A DNA stretch of 23,823 nucleotides, from IMG/VR virus record IMGVR_UViG_3300046463_000442, positions 1-23,823 of that record; one strand, given 5' to 3'. Source of the DNA: a virus. The notes below the pieces were generated by a model. The model ran no database searches, had not been told where the DNA came from, and worked only from the letters and a program-made list of their open reading frames with translations. This document shows positions 4,412 through 22,873 of this stretch, piece by piece; within the stretch, counting starts at the first letter, position 1; each line of letters opens with the position of its first letter. Position numbers and translations under genes: made by a program.

Positions 4412-4870
4412 TTACGGGGAGGTCGGCCACGTCAGAACTGGCAGACTGCACTCAGGGAAACCATCAGCTGTTGGCAGATCGCGTAGCGCTTGACGATAAT
4501 CCAATACGGCTTTGAGTTTAGCGGCTGTGAGTGTTGGTGTTGCACCGCCCAGTAACTCATCCTGATGCCTGATTATTATCCAGTCCGACGAATACAGATG
4601 TTGTACGCGTCCATTCAAAAGGGCGGACACCTTTGCCGTATGGATTTCTTCTGGCGTTTGGACCGGATCTGGCTCTGGCAACGGACGGTCAGTAAGCGTC
4701 CAGTCAGTACCGTTGAATGTGCAGATTTGAGTGACGTTATCAAAGTCGGGCGGGGCGATTTCTGTAGAGTTTGCCGGAAGAAGAAAAACACCTGGCTCTA
4801 GGGGAGATTCAAAGGCGTCTGTTACTCCGACAAAATCCATACTTGTTGGGTCAAAGCTGTAAACAATCAT
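4412..4870 (-). CDS. Tail fibre assembly protein
   Basis: 152 residues with the layout of tail fibre assembly chaperones: an N-terminal beta-rich part that begins MIVYSFDPTSMDFVG, a middle with FNGTDWTLTDRPLPEP, and a C-terminal helical region where VSALLNGRVQHL precedes a long helix ending VLDYRQALRDLP. It lies directly after the fibre gene, the constant place of such chaperones, which help the fibre trimerise and are generally not part of the virion. The start at 4870 has GAGG ten bases upstream. The family is divergent, so the call rests on pattern plus context. Confidence 0.75.
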   Translation of the reverse strand: MIVYSFDPTSMDFVGVTDAFESPLEPGVFLLPANSTEIAPPDFDNVTQICTFNGTDWTLTDRPLPEPDPVQTPEEIHTAKVSALLNGRVQHLYSSDWIIIRHQDELLGGATPTLTAAKLKAVLDYRQALRDLPTADGFPECSLPVLTWPTSP

Positions 4871-4882
4871 TTTTCTTTGTCC

Positions 4883-6079
4883 TCAATATTTGATGCAAGG
4901 CAGCAACGCAATGTTCTTCACCCGCGTTTCTGAACCACTACCCGATAACCCTGTACTGCCAGCAGACCAAGCGGCCACTGTAGTGGACCCACCGCCAGTT
5001 GCTGTAGTGAAGAATGTCGCAGAGCCATACGTGTGGCCGTGGGAAGGAAATTGATCTCCCTGCAGGCTACCGAACACGCGACTAGGGTCGAGGCCGGCGC
5101 CACCATCCCAGCCGCGAGGAGTCCTGCCACGAGCGTCGGGAACGTTAAACGTGGTTGATCCATCCCCCACACCAAATGGGCAGATAACCACGATTGCTGT
5201 AGAGGTGGCCGTGGCGTTTGCAGAGAGCGTGATGGTACTGGCACCAACAGCCGTGATAGTCGCACCAGCGGGAATTCCCGGGCCGCTAATTGGCATGCCG
5301 ACCCACATAGCTTGCGGGCTGGCCACGCTTGATATGCTGTTGCTGCCTGATGTAACAGTACCCGTTACTTGTGCCGTTATCGCGGCGAACAGCGTAGCGT
5401 AGGTGGTGCGCGATACGGCGGTACCGGACGCTGCCAAATATCCACTGGGCGGAGACATTGTTGCAAACCAGTCAACCTTTCCTGGCAGACCAATCAAAGT
5501 CGTCGCTTGACCAAGCGTCAGCGCGTGCTGGCTTTGTGTGGCATTGGCCACTTGCCTGGCGGCCCCGGAACAGAACAGCAAGATGTAAGAGCCTCCGCCA
5601 ACGGAGCTATTCCACTGAGCCCATGCCTCGCCGTTAGCAACAATCTCGCCCCCCTGGAGAGCTGAGTGAGCGCCCCCGACGAGCGCGACAACACCAACGC
5701 CATCATTGATTGTGCAGGGGCCATTATTAGCGTTGGCCGCTTTGAAACGGATCGGAACGCTTTCACTACGGATAGTGATGGCGGGCGTAAAGTTGCACAC
5801 ATAAGCATTGGCCGCTCCGGTATCGACGGCAAAAAAACTCGCACTGACGGCATCCCGCAGCGTGGAGTCAAGCGCCCCCATATCCAGCCAAGCTGTATTC
5901 GCGCTGTTGCGCTTTTTCGAGCGATTCGTGCCGGTATCCGCCCAGACCTGGCACGGGAATGTCGGGTTTGGCGTTGCAGCCCCGCTACTCTGAGATACGA
6001 GCGCCTGCAGTGCGGCGTTCATATCGGTTCGGAACGTTAGGCCAGGACCATTGGCAACGTCCATATCATGCTGCGACAT
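4883..6079 (-). CDS. Tail fibre with interrupted collar domain
   Basis: 398 residues. The N-terminus (about 1-75) probably attaches to the tail tip: FRTDMNAALQALVSQSSG then PCQVWADTGT..WLDMG. A beta-rich middle leads to a phage tail collar domain: LPGKVDWFATMSPPSGYLAASGTAVSRTTYATLFAAI at about 198-234 and FGVGDGSTTFNVPDARGR at 302-319. Between these two halves is an extra module of about 65 residues (236-300) with GSNSISSV, VGMPISGPGIPAGATITAV and STITLSANATAT. The C-terminus has a GDQFPSHGHTY histidine motif and ends ETRVKNIALLPCIKY, the usual fibre tip ending. It would bind the host receptor. It lies four bases from the J stop and is followed by its chaperone. Confidence 0.85.
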   Translation of the reverse strand: MSQHDMDVANGPGLTFRTDMNAALQALVSQSSGAATPNPTFPCQVWADTGTNRSKKRNSANTAWLDMGALDSTLRDAVSASFFAVDTGAANAYVCNFTPAITIRSESVPIRFKAANANNGPCTINDGVGVVALVGGAHSALQGGEIVANGEAWAQWNSSVGGGSYILLFCSGAARQVANATQSQHALTLGQATTLIGLPGKVDWFATMSPPSGYLAASGTAVSRTTYATLFAAITAQVTGTVTSGSNSISSVASPQAMWVGMPISGPGIPAGATITAVGASTITLSANATATSTAIVVICPFGVGDGSTTFNVPDARGRTPRGWDGGAGLDPSRVFGSLQGDQFPSHGHTYGSATFFTTATGGGSTTVAAWSAGSTGLSGSGSETRVKNIALLPCIKY

Positions 6080-6082
6080 AGG

Positions 6083-9000
6083 TCAGTATCCCTTTGAGAT
6101 GTAGTCGATAGAGCGGCCCGACTGGGCCACTCCGCCGGAATTGCGGATGAAGACGGTTAAACCGGTAGCCGTCTTTGCCGAGACGTCCAGGTAGTCGCCA
6201 GGGGAAAGCCCTTGCGCGGTAAGGCTGACAGAAGGGGCTGCGTTGAACGGCGGCGAATAGCTGATGACCAGCCCGCCCACGGGAACCGGAAGGTCATTCC
6301 CGCTATCAATGCGATCGGGCATGTCGATCACCACCTCAAGTTTGGATACTTCGATCCAATGCGAGGTCAGCTGTACGGATCCGCGCAGCTGGAAGTCGAA
6401 CAGTCGTGCGCGATAGTCGCCGACAACAAATGGCTTCCAGGCCGACCATACTGCGGGTGAAACGTCCGATGTACGCACCCAGAGCGAAAGCGAGGCGCCG
6501 CTAGGCGGATCGCCATCAATACCGAGCAGTGCATCGAAGTCCACCACTGAGTCGATGTAGGTGCCGTCATCATAAAGCGAGGCCTCTACATCAGCGGTCA
6601 GGCGGCAGTCATAGACGTAGCCGAGGTCCGACGGCGCAGCGAAGCTGTACGTCGCCGATAGCAACGAACCTCCGTACTTATCAATCTCGCCGAGCAGCGC
6701 ATCGATATCCGTTACATCATCCACGAACCCAGCACCCGACAGCTTCAGCACTCCATCTGCAGCGGCTGCATTGACAGCCACCCCGGTGAAGGCAGGCGAC
6801 TCAGTAACGGTCAGTACCACGTTGGATGGCAGAGTTGCCTGCGCATCTGACCAGACCTCGGTGATTGGCCCGCCGACTCCAGATGAGTCGACCGCACGCG
6901 CCAGGTACTTGCCCGGCAGCAACGCCACTACGGATGATGTGGAGCGCCCCGCTACCTCGATCAGCGGTAAAGCAGCTTCCCAATTTGCAGAGGTATTGCG
7001 CGCCTGGCGAATGGCGATACTGCCGCCAAGCTTCACGTCAAGCTCTGGAACGGGGTCCCATGCCAGTGTTGCTACGCTGTTGATGACATCCAGCCTCAGG
7101 CCAATTAATACCGTCGGTGGCGCCAGTAACGCCTGAGCGGTGTAGGTCTGGATCGATGCATTGCCGGATAGGCCGAGTACGGACTTTGACGTAACACGAA
7201 CGGACCACAGACCCGAGGATGCAGAATCGAAGTCGATGCTGGGTGTTGATATCTCGCCGACATACTCCCAGTTCCCTCCCGGCTTCATTACCTCGATCTG
7301 ATAGCGCATTGCCCGCGCAGAAGGTGTCCAGCTGACTGTCAGTCGTGCGGCGGCAAGCCCAGTCCCTGTGTCATATAGCGACTCAAGGAATGTCAGTTGG
7401 CCCACAGCGTCTGGTGCTGCGAGATTGACGATGCTGGTAGGCGCATCAACGTCTGGAGTACCGAAATCGACCTGGTCGAACTTGTCAGGGTCATAGGCAA
7501 TGGCGCTGATGGCGTAGGTTCCGTCGTCACCCTCTGAAATTCCTACGACACGAAACTTCTGCGTATCCAGCGCCGCACCAGCGAAGGCCCACGGCGCAGA
7601 GGCCAGCGGCGCGGATGGCAGAGCGGGCGAGACGGCTACCGATGTTGCGCCGGTCGAGACGGTGACACTACGGCTGGCATAGCTGCCATCTGACAGGATG
7701 ACGCTGATTACACCAGTCCCACCAAAGCCCAGCGGAGCATCGAGGAGCAAAGTGGTTGTAGTGCTTCCGGACAGGAGCCTGCCACCATTACGCGCCCCTG
7801 CGCGGTTGGCATCAGCGATATCGATGACGTCGCCTGGCATCGGGATTGCTCCGTCAGCGCCAGTGGCAAAGGTTACAGCCTCGCTTTCTGCGTAAAGCAG
7901 CCAGCGCCCCAGGCGACGAGCCTGGCCCTTGGATGTGCAGCCAACAGCAATCACATCGCTCTGCTGGATACGACCCCATTTGGCGATCAACTCAGGCCGC
8001 TCGACGAGCTCGACCGCCTGCTTGTATTGCTGGAATGGGTTATTCCAGGTCACCGCCGCAACGTTAAAACGCTGATCCGAGGCGACCGATTGGTAGCTGA
8101 AGTCGCCGCCAACCACATTCGAGTTGTTGAACAAGTACCGGCTGGAGCGCGGCGCGTCCTGCACGGCGGTCAGCGTGCCGCCAGCCCAGAAGCAGATCGC
8201 CCGGAAGACCGATACCATGTCATTGACTAGCTTCCACGCGTCCTGCTGGGTGGTCAGGGCCATATCGCAGACAAATCGCGGTTCATAGCCACCGGTACCA
8301 TAGCCATTCGGCACCATCACATCGCAGTATTGGCCGATGCTGTACAACGCGTATTTGTCGATCAGGGTCGAATCGAGCAGACCGCCAAGACCGTAGCGGG
8401 TGTTGGTCAGCATGTCGTACCAGACCCAGGCCGGGTTGTTACTCCACGCACGCTTGAACGTTCCGTCCCATGACCCCGAATAGGTCCGGGTGACGGTGTT
8501 GTAGTTCGTCGGCACCAGGACCTTGATCCCCTGGACCATGAACGACATGCGGGGGATGCTGGCAAACTGCTGGGCATCGATCGAGATGCCAACCATCGCC
8601 GTGTTGGGGTAGCGCAGCTTTTCATCCCACAACAGCGTCAGACTGTCGAAGAATGTGCGGTTCTGATTTGTCGAAGTGGTCGAGTCTCCACCCATGCGGG
8701 TTAGGCGGACGTACCTAGGCAGGCCGCCAGATACGGGCAGGCGCAGGTAATAAGAAAACTGTGTACGACTCATCGTCTTGCCATTGATGAGGATGTCTTC
8801 GCACAGTTGCGACCATGCGCCGCTCCCGACTTTCGCCTCGACTCGGAACAGCACGGAGTTTCCGCCCGTGTCTCCGTTAGTTGGGTTCTGTATATAAAGC
8901 TGGGGCACGCTGACGGTTACCCGCACCGCATCAACATCGGTGTCGGTGATGGCGCGCTCGATAGGAATCCAGCCTTTCATCTCCACACCAACTGCCTGCT

Positions 9001-9301
9001 CGGCCTCTAGCCCAGTCATCGGCATGTACGGCTGCCACTGCGTGCCGTAGCGAATATCAACGCTGACGTTCGAAAAGTTCAGGCTGTAATCAGGGTTCTG
9101 AAGCGGGACATCGTCAAAATAGATGCCCATCCAGCCGTAAGGGATGCCGTTGATCTCCCCTTCGCTGATGGCGTTTAGGACGCGGACGTGCTGCCTAGAG
9201 CGAAGGCTGTCAGGCGCTTCCACGGCGGCCCGAGTAGTGCTGCCGCCGCCTGTGTCGCCACTCTTCCCACCGCCTTTGCTGCCAATGATGAGTTCGCTCA
9301 T
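6083..9301 (-). CDS. J: Tail tip (host specificity) protein J
   Basis: 1072 residues from ATG 9301, chosen because it overlaps the stop of gene I by ATGA; a start at 9322 adds seven residues. This is a lambda gpJ-like central tail hub: a glycine-rich start (SKGGGKSGDTGGGS), then VRVLNAISEGEINGIPYG, a long central tail-attachment region including VRLTRMGGDSTTSTNQN and FKRAWSNNPAWVWYDML, the motif PGDVIDIADANRAG, and two fibronectin-III-like modules beginning near residues 640 and 735. The end is a beta-rich receptor-facing part. The protein closes the tail tube and contacts the cell. Length is close to lambda J (1132 residues). It follows gene I and precedes the fibre, as in lambda-like tails. 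Confidence 0.93.
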   Translation of the reverse strand: MSELIIGSKGGGKSGDTGGGSTTRAAVEAPDSLRSRQHVRVLNAISEGEINGIPYGWMGIYFDDVPLQNPDYSLNFSNVSVDIRYGTQWQPYMPMTGLEAEQAVGVEMKGWIPIERAITDTDVDAVRVTVSVPQLYIQNPTNGDTGGNSVLFRVEAKVGSGAWSQLCEDILINGKTMSRTQFSYYLRLPVSGGLPRYVRLTRMGGDSTTSTNQNRTFFDSLTLLWDEKLRYPNTAMVGISIDAQQFASIPRMSFMVQGIKVLVPTNYNTVTRTYSGSWDGTFKRAWSNNPAWVWYDMLTNTRYGLGGLLDSTLIDKYALYSIGQYCDVMVPNGYGTGGYEPRFVCDMALTTQQDAWKLVNDMVSVFRAICFWAGGTLTAVQDAPRSSRYLFNNSNVVGGDFSYQSVASDQRFNVAAVTWNNPFQQYKQAVELVERPELIAKWGRIQQSDVIAVGCTSKGQARRLGRWLLYAESEAVTFATGADGAIPMPGDVIDIADANRAGARNGGRLLSGSTTTTLLLDAPLGFGGTGVISVILSDGSYASRSVTVSTGATSVAVSPALPSAPLASAPWAFAGAALDTQKFRVVGISEGDDGTYAISAIAYDPDKFDQVDFGTPDVDAPTSIVNLAAPDAVGQLTFLESLYDTGTGLAAARLTVSWTPSARAMRYQIEVMKPGGNWEYVGEISTPSIDFDSASSGLWSVRVTSKSVLGLSGNASIQTYTAQALLAPPTVLIGLRLDVINSVATLAWDPVPELDVKLGGSIAIRQARNTSANWEAALPLIEVAGRSTSSVVALLPGKYLARAVDSSGVGGPITEVWSDAQATLPSNVVLTVTESPAFTGVAVNAAAADGVLKLSGAGFVDDVTDIDALLGEIDKYGGSLLSATYSFAAPSDLGYVYDCRLTADVEASLYDDGTYIDSVVDFDALLGIDGDPPSGASLSLWVRTSDVSPAVWSAWKPFVVGDYRARLFDFQLRGSVQLTSHWIEVSKLEVVIDMPDRIDSGNDLPVPVGGLVISYSPPFNAAPSVSLTAQGLSPGDYLDVSAKTATGLTVFIRNSGGVAQSGRSIDYISKGY

Positions 9302-9924
9302 GCGGGGATTGCCTCTACCCAAGTGCCGACGCCGACCACACTCGAGCCCACAAGCATTTGCCCGTAGACGATGGGGACCGGAAGGCCCTGCTGTGTTGAG
9401 TTGAACGCACCATTGAACAGGTACGAGGGCTTGTTCTCAGTGCTGGCCTGCTCTTGCTGGCTGCCTGACTTCGATGACGGCACTGGCGTCAGCATCTGTA
9501 CGATGCCACCTGCAACCATAGAGACGCCCATCATGATCAAGGCAGACCCGAAAGGTGCGGCGGAACCAAATGAGCCACCAGTAATAATTGCGCCAACGAC
9601 GATCAGCGCAGCCCCCATTACGGATTGGAAAAGACCACCGTTCTTGCTACCAGCAATGACTGGGACGATGCGGATCTCGGTCGTCCCGCTCAGGGTGAAC
9701 TCGCTTTCGCCGACGTTCTCGCGGTTGCGGAAGATGGCGAAGCGCAGTCCGCGTCTAGCAGAATCAATAATGAAATCTTCAAAGCCGTCGAGCGTGTTCT
9801 TTAGAGCGCTAAATGCCTCAACAACAGCCCCGGTCTCAAGCTGACGGAAGTGCTGGCGTCCGAAGGCTTTAGCCAGGCTGCCAGACAGCAAAATCATGGT
9901 CATGGCCTTGTTGGCAGTGGTCAT
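9298..9924 (-). CDS. I: Tail assembly protein I
   Basis: 208 residues, lambda gpI-like. The N-terminus has the ubiquitin-like fold pattern MILLSGSLAKAFGRQH with an LKNTLDGFEDFI helix. The middle holds two hydrophobic glycine-rich helices (about 105-121 and 130-147) of the kind usual in this family. The C-terminus has SYLFNGAFNSTQQGLPVPIVYGQMLVGSSVV, which is highly characteristic. It acts in assembly of the tail tip together with K and J. The start at 9924 has GGAGA seven bases upstream, and the leader holds a terminator-like hairpin. Downstream, the stop overlaps J. Confidence 0.92.
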   Translation of the reverse strand: MTTANKAMTMILLSGSLAKAFGRQHFRQLETGAVVEAFSALKNTLDGFEDFIIDSARRGLRFAIFRNRENVGESEFTLSGTTEIRIVPVIAGSKNGGLFQSVMGAALIVVGAIITGGSFGSAAPFGSALIMMGVSMVAGGIVQMLTPVPSSKSGSQQEQASTENKPSYLFNGAFNSTQQGLPVPIVYGQMLVGSSVVGVGTWVEAIPA

Positions 9925-9940
9925 ACTTTTCTCCGGGCAA

Positions 9941-9964
9941 TAAAAAACCGCCCGGAGGCGGCTT
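9941..9964 (-). terminator. Terminator-like hairpin before gene I
   Basis: Minus strand: CCGCC-UCCG-GGCGG (9948-9952 with 9957-9961), a stable 5-bp stem with a UNCG-type tetraloop, followed by six U and then AUU. It sits between the lipoprotein gene and the ribosome binding site of gene I. Confidence 0.6.
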
Positions 9965-9980
9965 CATTGTTTTCTATGGG

Positions 9981-10316
9981 TTAGATGCAGGTTTTGGCGG
10001 CATCCTTCCATCCTTGAGTTCCCACCCAGTCCATGGGGAGGAATACGCGAACAGATGACCCGGCGCTGTTTTCGTCAATGACAGCTAGCGCAACGATCCC
10101 GGTGAATGCGGCCGACGCTGCGATCTTGTAGCCTGTTTCGGTTTCGACGGAACTGGTGGATGAGTTGAACTCCTGCCACTTCGGTGAGAGGCATCGCGCC
10201 AGGCTCTGCGGGGTCTTGGTGGACACACCGGAGTAGGCCGGAGTGTCTTGTTGAAGCCCGGCCGTAGTGCAACCAGCCAGAACCATCATGAACAGTGCAG
10301 CAAAGACCATGCGCAT
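9981..10316 (-). CDS. Phage lipoprotein inside the tail-tip operon
   Basis: 111 residues. A signal peptide (MRMVFAALFMMVLAGC) has lipobox VLAGC with Cys16 as lipidation site. The mature domain contains SLARCLSPKWQEFN, a second hydrophobic stretch near 67-79 (AASAAFTGIVALAVI) and a final Cys110, which may pair with Cys42. The start at 10316 has GGAGG seven bases upstream; codon 3 is also ATG. Small lipoproteins carried in tail-tip operons include the receptor-blocking Cor/Llp proteins, so superinfection exclusion is a reasonable hypothesis, but no specific homology can be claimed. It splits the usual K-I gene pair. Confidence 0.75.
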   Translation of the reverse strand: MRMVFAALFMMVLAGCTTAGLQQDTPAYSGVSTKTPQSLARCLSPKWQEFNSSTSSVETETGYKIAASAAFTGIVALAVIDENSAGSSVRVFLPMDWVGTQGWKDAAKTCI

Positions 10317-10374
10317 ATTGAGCCTCCATGTGTTTTGGCGACTCTAGCAGGCAATAGGCAATCAAATACAGGGC

Positions 10375-11082
10375 CTATCCTGCGTAACGCAAGATGTGGG
10401 TCGTGCATTCGCGATACGCGCGGCCGTAGACCTCTTTGCAGCTGAGGCGCCCGTACAGGTGGTGAAGTAGGACATCTCCGTCCAGCCAGATCGCGCCGTG
10501 GCACGGTGTAGGACTGCCGATCGCCATGATGATCACATCACCCTGCTCTGGCGTAGATACCGGGACGAATCCGGCCCGCGCGAAGTTATCGACGTACAGG
10601 TTCTCACCGTTGTGCCACCAGTCATCCTTGCGGTGGAAGTCCAACAGCGTGATGCGGCGCACTTGCCGGTAGTAGTCGCGGACCAGCGTGTAACAATCGA
10701 TTACACCGTGGACAAATACTCGGCCTTCCAGCGCAAGCTCCCCGTTCGCCGGCATCTCATGCCAGGTCGCCACGCCATTGACCAGACCGACAATCCACCA
10801 GGCGGTGCGGCTCACAGCATGGCTGGCCAGATCGTGCAGGCTCGGCTCGGGGCCGGCATCTGGGTGCGAGTGGACAATCACCACGATGTCGCCCATGTCT
10901 TCGGCGGCCGCGTAATCCTCGGGGTGCAGGATGAAGTGATCCAGTTCCTCGGATTGATTGCGGCACGGCACGTACTTCGGCTTGCCGCGAACGTTGACCA
11001 CCAGCCCGACAGCCTCGCGCGGATACTCGGCAAAGGCGTGCGCCTCGGCGTCCACCCGACATTTATTGAACAGTTCGCTCAT
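10375..11082 (-). CDS. K: Tail assembly protein K, JAMM plus NlpC/P60
   Basis: 235 residues with two enzyme-like domains. The N-terminal JAB/MPN domain has Glu23 and a full metal-site motif H71-x-H73-x7-S81-x2-D84 (HSHPDAGPEPSLHD). The C-terminal NlpC/P60 domain has Cys130 in GVIDCYTLVRDYY and His195 in PTPCHGAIWL as likely catalytic pair. This is the lambda gpK architecture; the protein takes part in tail-tip assembly and may process a partner or cut peptidoglycan during infection. All recognisable catalytic residues are present, so both domains may be active. The gene starts just beyond the L stop with a weak ribosome binding site and is probably translated by coupling. Confidence 0.92.
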   Translation of the reverse strand: MSELFNKCRVDAEAHAFAEYPREAVGLVVNVRGKPKYVPCRNQSEELDHFILHPEDYAAAEDMGDIVVIVHSHPDAGPEPSLHDLASHAVSRTAWWIVGLVNGVATWHEMPANGELALEGRVFVHGVIDCYTLVRDYYRQVRRITLLDFHRKDDWWHNGENLYVDNFARAGFVPVSTPEQGDVIIMAIGSPTPCHGAIWLDGDVLLHHLYGRLSCKEVYGRAYRECTTHILRYAG

Positions 11083-17632: not shown

Positions 17633-18018
17633 TTTCGTGCCTGCACGCTGAAGCCGATGTTGAGGCCGGCGTAATTCCAGGGCTCGACGTTCTGCACCGT
17701 GTAGGTCTCGCCGTCGAACAGGATCTTGTCCTGGCTGACAGGCTTAGGCATATCAGCACCAGTGAGCAGAACCGGCGAGATCAGCAGCTTGACGTCGCCC
17801 TGCTTGATGCGGGAGCCGTCGATATCGTTCTGTTTATAGTTCTCGCGGAAGCCCGAACCGTCGTATTGGGTGGTTGTGTCCGGCGTTGTCCCGGTATCGG
17901 GGTCATATTCACCGGTGGAGATGTGGATCACCGACAGCTCCAGGCCTTTGCCGCCCTTGCTGCGTGGCGCCAGCATACGGGTCGCCGTGGCCTTGGCTCG
18001 ATCATAAATGTCGGTCAT
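17629..18018 (-). CDS. Head closure (head-tail stopper) protein
   Basis: 129 residues. An N-terminal helix (MTDIYDRAKATATRMLAPRSKGG) is followed by a small beta-barrel-like part: LELSVIHISTGEYDPDTGTT, then KQGDVKLLISPVLLTG and DKILFDGETYTVQNVEPW. This order, and its place between the connector-type gene and the neck protein, fit the head closure or stopper family (lambda FII or SPP1 gp16 position). It would seal the filled capsid. Overlaps by ATGA on both sides show tight coupling. Identification is mainly by position, size and beta pattern. Confidence 0.65.
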   Translation of the reverse strand: MTDIYDRAKATATRMLAPRSKGGKGLELSVIHISTGEYDPDTGTTPDTTTQYDGSGFRENYKQNDIDGSRIKQGDVKLLISPVLLTGADMPKPVSQDKILFDGETYTVQNVEPWNYAGLNIGFSVQARK

Positions 18019-18521
18019 GAGCGCACCATGGAAATGCTGCTGCTCGATCCCTCGATGAACTGAGCCATCATTTTGTCAATCTGGCGGTAGCGGACCACGC
18101 CATTGCCGTCCATGTATTCGGTCTTCAACGGGCCAACCGTTTCGGACTTGATGATCCGGTCGATGTCCTGATCCAACTCGCCCTGCCCTGCCTTGAATGC
18201 CATCTCGGCGCAGATCTGAGCCAGCGGGTTGGGAATGGCATCGCTCGGCCAATACTCGCAGCGAGCACCACCATGGCGCCGGACCATGTAGCGCGGCCAG
18301 GCCAACGCCTGAGTCGTTTTAGCCCGGTAGCCGCAGGTCCGCATGGCGTAGGTGCGCTCGAGGTAATCGGTAGACCGGCGCAGCGCCTGCTCTTTCTCGG
18401 TCGTGCTCAGCGTGGCCCAGACTGTATTGCCGCGCGCATCGTGATAGGCGTCGGCATAGGCGACCGTGCACAGGGATTCTGCGTCGGCACGGCCTGTGCC
18501 GTCCTCAGTGATAAGAGCCAT
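18015..18521 (-). CDS. Head-tail adaptor, DnaT-like annotated family
   Basis: 168 residues. The beginning MALITEDGTGRADAESLCTVAYADAYHDARGN matches a family often labelled putative DnaT-like ssDNA-binding protein, in which ADAYH..RGNxxW is the signature. Next come helices with LRRSTDYLERTYAMRTCGYRA, then QALAWPRYMV and a helical remainder. In phage late operons the family occupies the first head-tail connector position, so adaptor is the better guess than DNA replication. The start is not well marked: GGGG eight bases upstream. It follows the repeat protein gene by three bases. Confidence 0.7.
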   Translation of the reverse strand: MALITEDGTGRADAESLCTVAYADAYHDARGNTVWATLSTTEKEQALRRSTDYLERTYAMRTCGYRAKTTQALAWPRYMVRRHGGARCEYWPSDAIPNPLAQICAEMAFKAGQGELDQDIDRIIKSETVGPLKTEYMDGNGVVRYRQIDKMMAQFIEGSSSSISMVRS

Positions 18522-18524
18522 GTG

Positions 18525-19502
18525 CTACCCCAGCGGGAAAGTTTGTGTTTGCCCGGCGAGCGGACGAATATTCGGTTGACCGGTGAGCGGATAGAGCGGC
18601 GCCTGGCCGGAAAGTGGCATCGACAGGTTCACCCCATTCAGCGGGTAGACCTGAGTGATGCCTTCCAGCGGGTGCGGCCTTGAGGTGGCGTCAGTGCCTG
18701 TGGCATCAGCCGTCACCGGTGCAAACGACACTTCGTCGATGGTGCAGGATGTCGATGCAGACCCTGCTGCGTTGGTCGCGGGCGCAGTGAAGACGATCGG
18801 CGCGAATGCCCCATTGGCGGATACCGAAGGCAGCGCCTGGCCTGTGGGAGCGGAAAGCCCCATAAACGCCAGAGAAGCAGCCTTGAACGCACCGCCTAGA
18901 GCGGTCGCACCTGTGGGAGCGAGCGTCACCGATGCGATCGCCGCCGAAGCATTGCCGTTGACCGATGTGCTGCCCGAGGCCGATGCATTCGGCGCGGCCT
19001 GGGTGATGCTGGCGAGCAGTGCCGACTTGGATGCCGACCCGGAACCGGTATATCCCGGCGCGGCCAACGTCACAAGGCTTGGCGCGGCAGACTTCACCGC
19101 AGAGCCCGTGCCGGACGCCAGCGGAGCGCTTGCGGTGATCGCAGCAGGAGCCGCAGACCGTGAAGCGCTACCAGTGCCAGTCGATGCAGGCGCAGACATC
19201 ACTAGCGATGCCACGACAGCACTGGTAGACCCATTGACTACCGTTGCGCCAGTCGCCGAGCCAGATGGAGCCGTCATCGACACCGAAGCGGGAGCAGCAG
19301 CCACTCCAGCACCGGCCAAAACGCTTGCCGATGGAGCAGACATTGCAACTGATGCCGCAACCCCTGCTGCTACCCCGTCGCTTCCAGCCTGCCAGAACCC
19401 TGCGACTATCGCCGCCGCAGCCGGAGACTCAGGCCGAAACGTGTAGAAGTCAGGGGTCGCTACTCGTCCAGAAGGTGCGCTACGCCAAACGTTTTTGGCC
19501 AT
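18525..19502 (-). CDS. Ala/Ser-rich repeat protein with 9-residue tail repeats
   Basis: 325 residues, function unknown. The first 43 residues are ordinary (MAKNVWRSAPSGRVATPDFY..). Residues about 44-270 are some ten degenerate repeats of 19-27 residues, each with a short hydrophobic strand followed by S/T/A-A-P and then a G/S/T/A-rich link, for example SLVMSAPASTGTGSA, AITASAPLASGTGSA, LVTLAAPGYTGSGSA. Residues 277-325 are five consecutive exact-length repeats xPLxGxxxx (HPLEGITQV, YPLNGVNLS, MPLSGQAPL, YPLTGQPNI, RPLAGQTQT) and the start of a sixth. The repeats are diverged in DNA, so they are held by protein selection. Placed between capsid-associated genes and head-tail connectors, it is most likely a virion component such as a decoration fibre. 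Confidence 0.75.
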   Translation of the reverse strand: MAKNVWRSAPSGRVATPDFYTFRPESPAAAAIVAGFWQAGSDGVAAGVAASVAMSAPSASVLAGAGVAAAPASVSMTAPSGSATGATVVNGSTSAVVASLVMSAPASTGTGSASRSAAPAAITASAPLASGTGSAVKSAAPSLVTLAAPGYTGSGSASKSALLASITQAAPNASASGSTSVNGNASAAIASVTLAPTGATALGGAFKAASLAFMGLSAPTGQALPSVSANGAFAPIVFTAPATNAAGSASTSCTIDEVSFAPVTADATGTDATSRPHPLEGITQVYPLNGVNLSMPLSGQAPLYPLTGQPNIRPLAGQTQTFPLG

Positions 19503-19506
19503 GACG

Positions 19507-20304
19507 TCACCCGTTTACGATTTCAAACATCAGCTCAAAGCCGCCAGTTGACGTGCTGTCAGGTTGAACGACCGCCATCAGTGCGCTGTCGGCGAAGACC
19601 TGCGGCATGCCGGTCTTCATGAAGTCGTGCGTGTCACCAGCGTTCGCCAGCAGGACACGCCCAGCCCAGAGGCGGCGCAGCACCAGAACATTGAAGGTGC
19701 CAACGGTAGAAACCGTGCTGGTCACCGACTCGATCTTCTGTACGCCTGTGTCGCCTGTCTGGAGTGGCAGCATAAGCATGCGATTAGCGATCGGCGCGAC
19801 ACCTGTAGCGATGGTGCCCGTCGTGCGGCCCGTCACACCGTCCTGATTGGTGTAGGTGATTGCGATGCTCTGGTTGCCGGTAAAGGCTGTCACCGCCTCA
19901 ATCCAGATATCAGTGCCGGTGAAGTCCGTGCCGCCTGGAACCCGCGACGAATAGCTCGGCTGAGAGGTCAGCGTGGTTGCAGCGTTGAACGCGTAGGCCC
20001 CGGCCTTGAACAGACAGTCAAACAGGTGTAGCCGGCAACTCACCGTCGCGCCAAACGTGATGTTGGTGATGTAGCCTAAATTGCTTCCCGCGAACGCGTT
20101 GATGGTCGGGAAACCACCGTTCGCATCGGTTGGGACCGTCCCGTTTGCCGTGTTGGAGCCAGCCAGCGTGCCAGATCCAGGGTTGCCACCCGCGTTGATC
20201 ACCTGTGTCGGCGCTACCGCTACCGAGGTGATGACGTTGGTCTTGACGATCTGCACCCGCTGCGTCGGTGCCGCAATGAGCTGGTCAAGCGACGTAATAG
20301 CCAT
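19507..20304 (-). CDS. Putative virion protein, function unknown
   Basis: 265 residues. The sequence is beta-rich with many Thr, Gly, Ala and Asn: ITSLDQLIAAPTQRVQIVKT at the start, then NLGYITNITFGATVSCRLHL, FTGTDIWIEAVTAFTGNQS and NVLVLRRLWAGRVLLANAG. There is no signal peptide or membrane helix. I recognise no domain. The location between a decoration-like gene and the repeat protein, all in the structural operon, makes a capsid-associated or neck structural protein likely. The start at 20304 has AGGTG upstream, and the gene ends five bases from the start of its neighbour. It could also be a connector-associated protein replacing one of the missing classical gene products. Confidence 0.65.
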   Translation of the reverse strand: MAITSLDQLIAAPTQRVQIVKTNVITSVAVAPTQVINAGGNPGSGTLAGSNTANGTVPTDANGGFPTINAFAGSNLGYITNITFGATVSCRLHLFDCLFKAGAYAFNAATTLTSQPSYSSRVPGGTDFTGTDIWIEAVTAFTGNQSIAITYTNQDGVTGRTTGTIATGVAPIANRMLMLPLQTGDTGVQKIESVTSTVSTVGTFNVLVLRRLWAGRVLLANAGDTHDFMKTGMPQVFADSALMAVVQPDSTSTGGFELMFEIVNG

Positions 20305-20312
20305 CAGATCAC

Positions 20313-20732
20313 CTAGCGGTTGACGTAGAGCGGAGTGGACAGCGTGACGGTGAAGCTGCCCGCTGTACTGGTGACAGTGCCGCCGAAGTCCACGAAGGTG
20401 ACCAGTTCGTCAGTGGCTGCCGTGCCGACTGACTTGTAGATCCACGCGCCGACAGCCGAGATGGTCGCACCGGTCCAGGCCGCCGGGTTGCCGAAGGTCA
20501 CCGCAACGCGGTTGTTGGCCGTATCGACCGCGCCAACGCTACAGGTCACCGTCGAGCCGCCGGCTGCATACGTACCGGAAGCACCGACCTCGGTCACGAT
20601 GTCGTTGCGAAAGTCGAAGGTGTCCAGTTCGGTCTCGGTCGGAACCGCCGAAACCAGCAGCATCTTGAATGTGCCGGAGAAGTAGGCATCAGCCATACGC
20701 TTCGGCAGGAATAGCGAATTTGCTGATGCCAT
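20313..20732 (-). CDS. Putative capsid-decoration-like protein
   Basis: 139 residues. A short helical N-terminus (SLFLPKRMADAYFSGTFKML) is followed by a compact beta domain: FRNDIVTEVGASGTYAAGG, VTCSVGAVDTANNRVAVTFG, GATISAVGAWIYKSVG and LVTFVDFGGTVTSTAGSFTV. The order, especially AVGAWIYKSVG..ATDELVTFVDF, is reminiscent of small phage structural proteins in which the strand A.VLY...G and DELI.Y.D recur, often proposed as head decoration or tail structural proteins. The gene follows the coat gene and the 52-residue gene, a usual position for decoration proteins. It is translated from GGAG overlapping the end of the upstream frame. Confidence 0.65.
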   Translation of the reverse strand: MASANSLFLPKRMADAYFSGTFKMLLVSAVPTETELDTFDFRNDIVTEVGASGTYAAGGSTVTCSVGAVDTANNRVAVTFGNPAAWTGATISAVGAWIYKSVGTAATDELVTFVDFGGTVTSTAGSFTVTLSTPLYVNR

Positions 20733-20940: not shown

Positions 20941-22113
20941 TTAGCCCAGCAGGATGCCCGAGTGGCGAGGAGCGATCATTTTCACGCCCCATGCCAGGTT
21001 GATCTCGTAGCGGACTTGGCGTTTCTGCTTGTAGATGCAGAACTCGTAGGTGAGGCCCGACACAGGGTCGGTGACCAGCATTACGTCGTCGGCATCGTCG
21101 CCACCTTCTGGCATCGCAGGAGCGCGGGTTGCCAGCTGGATGGCCGAGCGGTGGAAGAACATGTTGCGGGTGGCAGCAGCAACCACGGTGATCGCCTTGG
21201 CAGCAGCGCTCATTGCAACGCGCAGGCCTGGCTCGGCGATGGTGATCGAACCACCGTTGGAGGTGTCGGTGTCGCCCGAGACAACCACGTACTTGTTGGT
21301 ATCACCCGCGAAAGTGACGATGTCGCCCGCGAGGATGGTGCCAGTACCTGCCGAAGCCAGGGTGATGGCGGTCGCGCCGACTGCATAGCCTGCGGCGTTG
21401 GTAGTGGCAGCAGCGCCAGTACCCACGGCAACGCCTTCGCGCACCTGAGCCGAGTTGTGCAGCAGCATGCCTTGGTATTCACCCAGAGCACCTTGACGCA
21501 ACAGCGCCTCGGACTGGACGCCGCCAGTGTTGGTTTGGAACAGGGTGGACATCTTGCCGCGGATGTTCGCAACAGCTGCGCCACCGAGGACCATGTGCAT
21601 GTCGCTCTGCGGAGCACCGTTGTCGTCCAGGATCTTGCGAGCCAGGGCGAAGTCGCTCAGGTCGCCGGAGGTGGCGAATGGCGTGGCGCCGGCGGTGCCG
21701 TATGCGCGCGAGGTGTTGATGTGCAGAGCAGCGAGGTCGCCTTCGACTTCGTTGGTCAGCGTGCGGATGGCTTGGGCGATACGCTGGGCATTGATGTCAC
21801 CCAGGGTGCCGGCGTTACGCAGGCCCAGGGTTTCCTCACCAGTGATGCCGAACGGTACCGAACGCGCCTTGCTGATGGTCATCTGCACGTTGCCGATGGT
21901 CTGGTTTGGGGTATCAGCAGCGTAAGCCGCAGGAACCAGGTCTTCAGCAGCCATCGCGCCAACCACTGGCGAAACGACGGCTTGGCCGACAGCTGCACGC
22001 TCTGCAGTCGAGTCGCGGGATACGGCCGGGATGAAACCGACCAGCTCGCGAGATACAACGTCCATCGCTTCCTGAATGGAAGGGATCAGACTGGTGAGGG
22101 TCAAAGTGCCCAT
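20941..22113 (-). CDS. Major capsid (coat) protein, P22 gp5-like
   Basis: 390 residues. The N-terminal part has LTSLIPSIQEAMDVVSRELV, then a long middle with FGITGEETLGLRNAGTLGDI, IAQAIRTLTNEVEGDLAAL and HMVLGGAAVANIRGKM. A Gly/Ala/Thr-rich segment from about 235 to 310 could be the inserted I-domain of the P22 group. The C-terminus ends AWGVKMIAPRHSGILLG, as in P22-type coat proteins. It would form the T=7 shell in the HK97 fold and be assembled with the scaffold encoded just upstream. No separate maturation protease is seen, which fits the P22 mode. The start at 22113 has GAGG nine bases upstream. Family assignment is by remembered pattern and context. Confidence 0.85.
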   Translation of the reverse strand: MGTLTLTSLIPSIQEAMDVVSRELVGFIPAVSRDSTAERAAVGQAVVSPVVGAMAAEDLVPAAYAADTPNQTIGNVQMTISKARSVPFGITGEETLGLRNAGTLGDINAQRIAQAIRTLTNEVEGDLAALHINTSRAYGTAGATPFATSGDLSDFALARKILDDNGAPQSDMHMVLGGAAVANIRGKMSTLFQTNTGGVQSEALLRQGALGEYQGMLLHNSAQVREGVAVGTGAAATTNAAGYAVGATAITLASAGTGTILAGDIVTFAGDTNKYVVVSGDTDTSNGGSITIAEPGLRVAMSAAAKAITVVAAATRNMFFHRSAIQLATRAPAMPEGGDDADDVMLVTDPVSGLTYEFCIYKQKRQVRYEINLAWGVKMIAPRHSGILLG

Positions 22114-22126
22114 GCGGTGTTACCTC

Positions 22127-22873
22127 TTAATCGACAATCTTGATGTTTGCCTTGACCGCCGCTCGTTGATCGAGGGGGCTCAAGGCTTCGTATTGGGTTC
22201 GTTTCATGGTCTTGGCGCCGTGGGTCGCGTTGCTCTGTTGCGAGCCGCCGCCATTGGCGTTGGCCGGGAACCAGTGCGGAGCCTTTTCTTTCATGTCGCT
22301 GAACCACTCCTTGAGCGTCAGCGGCTTGCCGTCCTTGCCGAATGCGTCCTCTACGGCGACAGGGTTGCCCTCGTCGTCGAGCTTGAAGGTCGCGGTAGCA
22401 CGGAGCAGAGCGTCATCGATTGCGTACTGGTGGAGGCCAGCAGCGGTAGCTTCTGCGCGGATGCCGTTTTCAAGGACGCGGCGACTGAACTTGTCAGCCC
22501 GGGTCTCGGCAGCTTCGCGCGCGGCACGTTCTTTGGCGGTTTCTTGCTCGAAGCCTGCCTTCATGCGCGTGGTGCGCTTGTCGAGCACTTCGTCAATCTT
22601 CCCGGCAGCGATCAGGCCAGCTTCTTCGTCATTGGCAAACTTCGACAGGATGTTTCGAACTGCATCAGGGTCGATGCCTTCGAAGCGAGCGGCTTCCAGC
22701 TTGGCTGCCTTGAGCGAGCCAATCAGTTCACCGTTCTTTGTCTTGAGACCGCTTACAGCTGCTTCAACAGCTGCTGCAACCTTGGCGTCGAAGTCTTGGG
22801 TGTCGTTGCCGCCACCGTTGCCGCCTTCGCCTTCTTCAGCCATCAACGGATACCACTTGCCGAAAATAAACAT
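22127..22873 (-). CDS. Scaffolding protein
   Basis: 248 residues, highly charged and helical. The N-terminus has a Gly/Glu-rich segment (AEEGEGGNGGGND), followed by coiled coil with KNGELIGSLKAAKLEAARFE and long runs of A, E, K and R (about 50-150), and a C-terminal basic end KTMKRTQYEALSPLDQRAAVK that would bind the coat. ATG 22873 is preferred: AAGGGG lies seven bases upstream, whereas ATG 22843 has none. The protein directs capsid assembly and leaves before DNA packaging. It lies 13 bases before the coat gene, the standard order. Confidence 0.88.
   Translation of the reverse strand: MFIFGKWYPLMAEEGEGGNGGGNDTQDFDAKVAAAVEAAVSGLKTKNGELIGSLKAAKLEAARFEGIDPDAVRNILSKFANDEEAGLIAAGKIDEVLDKRTTRMKAGFEQETAKERAAREAAETRADKFSRRVLENGIRAEATAAGLHQYAIDDALLRATATFKLDDEGNPVAVEDAFGKDGKPLTLKEWFSDMKEKAPHWFPANANGGGSQQSNATHGAKTMKRTQYEALSPLDQRAAVKANIKIVD

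Follow-up and report, generated by a model that had tools for sequence, protein, structure and literature searches.

Why should a phage protein end in a run of nine-residue units whose spacing is exact, when most of the residues between the fixed ones vary from unit to unit? Such a protein, of 325 aa, is encoded on the minus strand of the window (the whole 23,823-nucleotide stretch analysed here, an IMG/VR virus fragment; Table 1), among the head, connector and tail genes of a long-tailed phage. The original prediction, made from the letters alone, saw in this P-L-x-G end either a beta-solenoid or a binding tail, and a search of the literature on nine-residue repeats in phages returned nothing. 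We argue here that the array serves to dock an accessory fibre or tether of the neck onto the virion, the likely ring being head-tail adaptor Ad1, whose gene comes next, and we put the probability of this reading at about 0.5.

Results

The window and its head-to-tail module

Table 1. Features of the module in the window
Feature	Position	Strand	Remarks
325-aa ORF, ATG start	18525-19502	minus	whole ORF is a candidate accessory neck-fibre/tether protein
C-terminal array, 5 x xPLxGxxxx, then FPLG and stop	18525-18674	minus	residues 277-325
Body of the 325-aa protein, imperfect repeats of ~22 residues	18738-19367	minus	period z-score 8.0 at lag 22
N-terminal motif of the 325-aa protein, MAxNxWRxxPSGRx...IxxxFWxA	19383-19502	minus	shared with otherwise unrelated proteins of the same slot
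Head-tail adaptor Ad1	18015-18521	minus	PHROG 477; Pfam DnaT_2 PF20557; starts 3 bases past the array stop
265-aa jelly-roll-like protein	19507-20304	minus	same module; 54 relatives; AF2 pLDDT 89; without specific fold match
139-aa PHROG 644 protein	20313-20732	minus	in relatives, the slot holds a homologue of gp80 (GP4 fibre I, PF23140)
Major head protein (PHROG 283)	20941-22113	minus	upstream end of the module
Scaffold	22127-22873	minus	

Past Ad1, the Pfam and PHROG searches give a tail completion/Neck1 gene and a tail tube gene, followed by an ORF of 1026 aa, the tape measure to judge by where it lies and how long it is. The Ad1 family itself bears two labels, 'putative DnaT-like ssDNA binding protein' in Pfam and head-tail adaptor Ad1 in PHROG, and we favour the adaptor identity on grounds of position and context. 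The fold search with the model of the 265-aa protein gave generic jelly-roll likeness only (best Z 5.4, low Foldseek probability). In four relatives (L026, L036, L041 and L056) a second, similar copy apparently follows the 265-aa gene and replaces the repeat protein.

The nine-residue array

The 325-aa protein ends in S-R-P-[HPLEGITQV][YPLNGVNLS][MPLSGQAPL][YPLTGQPNI][RPLAGQTQT]-FPLG-stop, at the very coordinates where the array had been placed before. The five repeats had been called exact, which is true of the P-L-x-G frame; the other six positions of the unit are variable. The array is far beyond chance: 20,000 shuffles of the whole protein, and as many of its last 50 residues, yielded two PLxG at spacing 9 at the very most. 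At the DNA level the units are much less alike, with a mean identity of 0.46 between them (0.52, 0.60 and 0.26 at the first, second and third codon positions), and Tandem Repeats Finder did not detect the array as a DNA repeat. With 46% of all their bases shared, but 26% at third codon positions, the units are old, neither slipped copies nor the product of recent duplication.

A comparison of repeat numbers among relatives had been proposed, and four of them (L004, L005, L013 and L028) each have exactly five units at spacing 9 followed by FPLG. Across these and the window, the P, L and G columns of the tail are invariant in 17 of 17 cases, as opposed to 13 of the 33 remaining tail columns, and dN/dS in the tails of close relatives is 0.15-0.49. 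The view that selection has preserved the period is thus borne out by the shuffled third positions, the invariant P, L and G and the low dN/dS, and the random loss of period or frameshifts that would speak against it were looked for in the relatives' ends and none were seen. The last ~13 codons (18525-18570) are nearly invariant in DNA in five relatives. The gene ends in GGGGTAG, which resembles a ribosome-binding site for Ad1, and translation of Ad1 is probably coupled to that of the array gene.

Profile searches with the 325-aa protein found no Pfam or PHROG family above the cut-off, the weak low-complexity matches having E-values of 0.28 (Pfam) and 0.034 (PHROGs), and tblastn with this protein alone gave no match among named phages. 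In the AF2 model, which is poor as a whole (mean pLDDT 37), the body shows weak alternating strands, and residues 272-325 are without secondary structure (block pLDDT 25-36).

A three-part design in one genomic slot

The protein is built of three parts: an N-terminal motif of ~40 residues (MAxNxWRxxPSGR...), a body with a period of 22 residues and the nine-residue tail. Since an alignment of the N-terminal motif (A1) was too variable for scanning the collection, the neighbouring 265-aa gene served as the handle, and 54 loci were gathered with it. At many of these the next gene encodes a protein built alike but with another body (period 18-24) and often another array at the C-terminus, mostly of period 9, such as RTYTVKAES (L012), RTYTLGAEQ (L006) or RTISFNELS (L019-L021); many others are without a nine-residue array, some having another gene in the slot and some an array of period 8, 10 or 12. 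A short C-terminal period recurs across loci and is therefore a trait of the slot rather than a quirk of one gene.

PLxG arrays precede the Ad1 gene

A search for the PLxG pattern in phage proteins had also been suggested. Performed on viral contigs at the DNA level, independently of homology, it returned the relatives of the window together with L074 (985 aa), L106 and L127, where unrelated bodies of low-complexity repeats end in the array, and L144, where it sits on an ORF of 46 aa. Many four-unit matches in viral contigs were set aside as simple-repeat ORFs. When the search was started from Ad1 alone it led to L060/L062, whose upstream protein likewise ends in two PLxG units, and this brings the Ad1-coupled set to the window, L004, L005, L013, L028, L074, L106, L127, L060/L062 and L144. 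The number of units varies from 2 to 5 across these lineages. In bacterial genomes, the PLxGQ pattern occurred only in collagen-like and cellular low-complexity arrays, with no recognisable prophage.

A DnaT_2-type Ad1 gene lies downstream of the array in all six PLxG lineages, and directly so in five. The array stop is separated from the Ad1 start by 3 bases in the clade of the window, 2 in L060/L062 and 15 in L144, and overlaps it in L074 (ATGA) and L106 (GTGA). In L127 an ORF resembling a GIY-YIG homing endonuclease (reverse strand, ~550-1432) lies between the two genes. PF20557 is found in 10/10 PLxG contigs as opposed to 3/28 contigs with other arrays; counted by lineage (6/6 against 3/28), the hypergeometric chance is ~6e-5, a hand calculation that is approximate given the relatedness of the contigs and the retrieval of L060 through Ad1.

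Neither gp77 (PF23148) nor gp80 (PF23140), two proteins of the podophage GP4 system discussed below, was matched in the window, itself a fragment, or in the seven other PLxG contigs searched, which come from lineages other than L060/L062. By the same profiles, gp77 was found in five relatives carrying other arrays and gp80 in 7 of 20 records, every one of them outside the PLxG set. The 265-aa and PHROG 644 genes were absent from the other five PLxG lineages, some of whose contigs are short fragments, in searches where the positive controls matched, and so neither is a constant partner of the PLxG tail. With none of the four found regularly alongside, Ad1 is the only constant partner seen here.

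In a relative, Rhizobium phage P106B (L067), the interval between the head genes and Ad1 (7797-10661) holds an esterase resembling lysophospholipase L1 and another large protein, both without nine-residue tails; here the accessory slot is put to a different use.

AExR arrays and the GP4 system

Many phages carry another class of nine-residue units, with the consensus [LYF]x[VI]xAExR[T], on proteins of the same three-part design. A DNA pattern run over viral contigs retrieved 36 ORFs that match the hydrophobic pattern in full, 34 of which have the array within their last 80 residues. In 22 of the 30 cases whose contig reaches far enough downstream, a gp77-like gene comes next; the pairing is missing in the other 8. 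The gp77-like family is named 'Podophage GP4 fiber-tail adaptor protein gp77' in Pfam (PF23148) and matches PDB 8jou. In the window's own family too, gp77 lies 17-53 bases past the array gene in L006, L009, L012 and L031. Of 14 gp77 loci inspected in named phages, 7 show, as judged by eye, a tail of this kind on the first or second gene upstream; none was seen near gp77 in the actinobacteriophages inspected, and gp77 itself was not found in Slicko01. In Lacusarx and Mwe-JY26, AExR-like arrays and an Ad1 of the DnaT_2 type occur in one and the same genome.

One such arrangement is that of Burkholderia phage BcepIL02, where gp55 is a gp80 homologue (Pfam 'GP4 fiber I protein gp80', matching 8jou_a), gp56 a repeat protein with a nine-residue tail and gp57 a gp77 homologue. 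The second of these has 20-residue repeats and ends in RGLRVDHEN-RALRVPRPQ-RELAIAEA; PHROG counts it as a virion structural protein, in the category 'head and packaging'. Set beside this order, with a nine-residue-array repeat protein between fibre I and adaptor genes, the window agrees in slot and architecture and differs in motif. The remark that no named family with this repeat was known stands for the repeat itself, which has no Pfam or PHROG match, but the protein belongs to a wider nine-residue-array design tied genetically to the fibre/adaptor system of GP4.

The slot ahead of the 265-aa gene in the window's family is occupied by either a gp80 homologue or PHROG 644 (one or the other in L009, L010, L012, L024, L025, L031, L047 and L052). 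We rejected the possibility that PHROG 644 is itself a gp80 homologue, as hhalign gives the pair a probability of 0.2%; as there is no detectable relatedness between the two families, one seems to replace the other. A PDB match of the PHROG 644 profile, to the 'tail wing arm gp31' (9d93), is not significant (E 0.16).

Discussion

A proposed docking tail on the neck

If the favoured interpretation is correct, the 325-aa protein would consist of its N-terminal motif, a flexible shaft of 22-residue repeats acting as spacer, and a multivalent tail lying like a comb against a ring of the neck, with one unit per subunit or per groove between subunits. Among GP4/BcepIL02-type phages, that ring would be the Ig-like collar of gp77, and the units there bear the AExR motif; where the units are PLxG, as in the window, the likely ring is the DnaT_2-type Ad1, which, given that gp77 was not matched in the window, is the best candidate for it. 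The distal part of the protein would bear whatever touches the host, so that the C-terminus would be proximal and the N-terminus distal. This polarity, like the contact and the geometry of the ring, is inferred. Two proteins support it: the AExR protein of L229, with LamG lectin domains N-terminal to the array, and gp34 of Alishewanella phage LSH1, an adhesin-like protein that has a lyase-like domain at its N-terminus, is disordered at its C-terminus and shares its module with a gp80-like protein and one of Ig fold (PMC13243795). The GP4 collar itself is described as mismatched 15:12 to the ring of the head-tail adaptor (PMC10925440), and the GP4 fibril as linking an adhesin to the collar (PMC13243795). 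Of the two ideas first put forward, then, it is the binding tail that the genomic evidence favours.

Several observations weigh against docking. The adjacency of the genes can stem from recombination boundaries or translational coupling rather than from contact, and a strict fit of one unit per subunit does not predict a unit number that differs between lineages. Likewise, over a quarter of the AExR arrays and half of the named gp77 loci are without the pairing, and Lacusarx and Mwe-JY26 combine the motif of one class with the adaptor of the other.

It is unlikely, though not to be neglected, that the units lie instead at the distal end of the appendage, where they would assemble into a small beta oligomer for binding the host or capping the fibre. 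The receptor end of trimeric tail fibres is usually their C-terminal tip, and the alternating hydrophobic pattern of the units is compatible with a strand-turn repeat. A receptor end should, however, vary with the host, whereas PLxG is kept on unrelated bodies and tracks the type of Ad1, and the lectin- and lyase-like domains of relatives (L229 and LSH1 gp34) lie at their N-termini. We give still less credit to an appendage of the capsid, held there by the 265-aa jelly-roll protein or by the N-terminal motif, with the tail pointing outward or bound to the shell. The genes are indeed flanked by that of the major head protein on one side and by the connector genes on the other, the N-terminal motif and the 265-aa gene occur as a pair within the window's family, the 265-aa fold is weakly like turret and cement proteins, and PHROG files the BcepIL02 relative with the head. 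Yet there are PLxG tails where both the 265-aa and the 139-aa gene are lacking, the AExR tails are paired with a homologue of a neck adaptor, and what is kept with Ad1 is the tail and not the N-terminal motif.

An array with no role at the protein level, kept merely as host of translation signals or as a recombination boundary beside the Ad1 gene, seems improbable. It would fit the near-invariant final codons, a stop that abuts or overlaps the Ad1 start and bodies that are swapped between phages, but in the array taken as a whole amino acids are conserved while third positions vary, and the nine-residue period stays the same where the DNA differs between lineages. The beta-solenoid of the original prediction, or a similar stand-alone fold, we hold to be about as improbable, in spite of the exact period and the preserved P, L and G positions: nine residues are short for a solenoid coil, arrays of two or three units (L060, L144) would be too short to form one, and the AF2 model, of low confidence in this region, puts no strands in the tail.

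Two motif classes and a possible socket

The two motif classes can be set in one register, Y-P-L-A-G-Q-T-Q-T against [LYF]-x-V-P-A-E-S-R-T, with aromatic or aliphatic residues at position 1, L/V/I at 3, A/P at 4, G/A at 5, Q/E at 6, S/T at 7, Q/R at 8 and T at 9. On sequence grounds, this suggests that both could be versions of a common strand-turn docking element. More tentatively, tailed phages may share an interchangeable plug and socket at the neck, where the class of the comb (PLxG or AExR) is matched to that of the ring (DnaT_2-type Ad1 or gp77 collar); we consider this possible rather than probable. The plug would stay with the gene of its socket, and adhesin and shaft modules would therefore be freely swappable. 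Were the match to hold, it would explain how phages exchange the appendages that contact the host whilst keeping their attachment, and the comb would account for the poor prediction of the C-terminal region of gp34 in LSH1, which the 2026 study left unexplained.

Attachment of fibres in the GP4 manner is already known; what would be new here are the PLxG variant and the rule that relates motif to socket. Accessory fibres of the neck are poorly annotated because their low-complexity repeats defeat both homology search and structure prediction. A C-terminal nine-residue array, placed by its gene context, lets such proteins be recognised from the sequence itself, connects them with GP4, the one solved system, and names a specific candidate partner.

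Likenesses to and differences from known systems

In relatives of the window that follow the GP4 module (gp80, PF23140; gp77, PF23148; 8jou), the order is gp80-like gene, 265-aa gene where present, nine-residue-array repeat protein and gp77-like gene. The window differs from it in having neither gp80 nor gp77, in having PHROG 644 as slot-mate, PLxG rather than AExR units, and Ad1 as the next gene. The array proteins gave no match in searches of solved structures, and a protein in this position is thus not seen as a chain in GP4. The 'extra structural module' of LSH1, gp34-gp35-gp36, combines an adhesin-like protein whose C-terminus is poorly predicted, a gp80-like fibril and an Ig-fold protein, and is proposed to attach the adhesin to the virion (PMC13243795); it differs in its genome position, after lysis, and a nine-residue array on gp34 is a prediction only. 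The DnaT_2/PHROG 477 Ad1, for its part, is a partner gene of the PLxG arrays and not a homologue, the contact being putative.

Similar in build are BcepIL02 gp56 (PHROG 19041) and Itty13 gp15 (YP_010671604.1), which share with the window's protein a body of ~20-residue repeats and short C-terminal nine-residue units, but have two or three AExR-like units and a gp77 neighbour that links these phages to podophage GP4. In BcepMigl (L252), gp27 (4853-6925), annotated with pectin lyase activity, lies between gp28, which has a nine-residue tail, and the gp77 homologue gp26.
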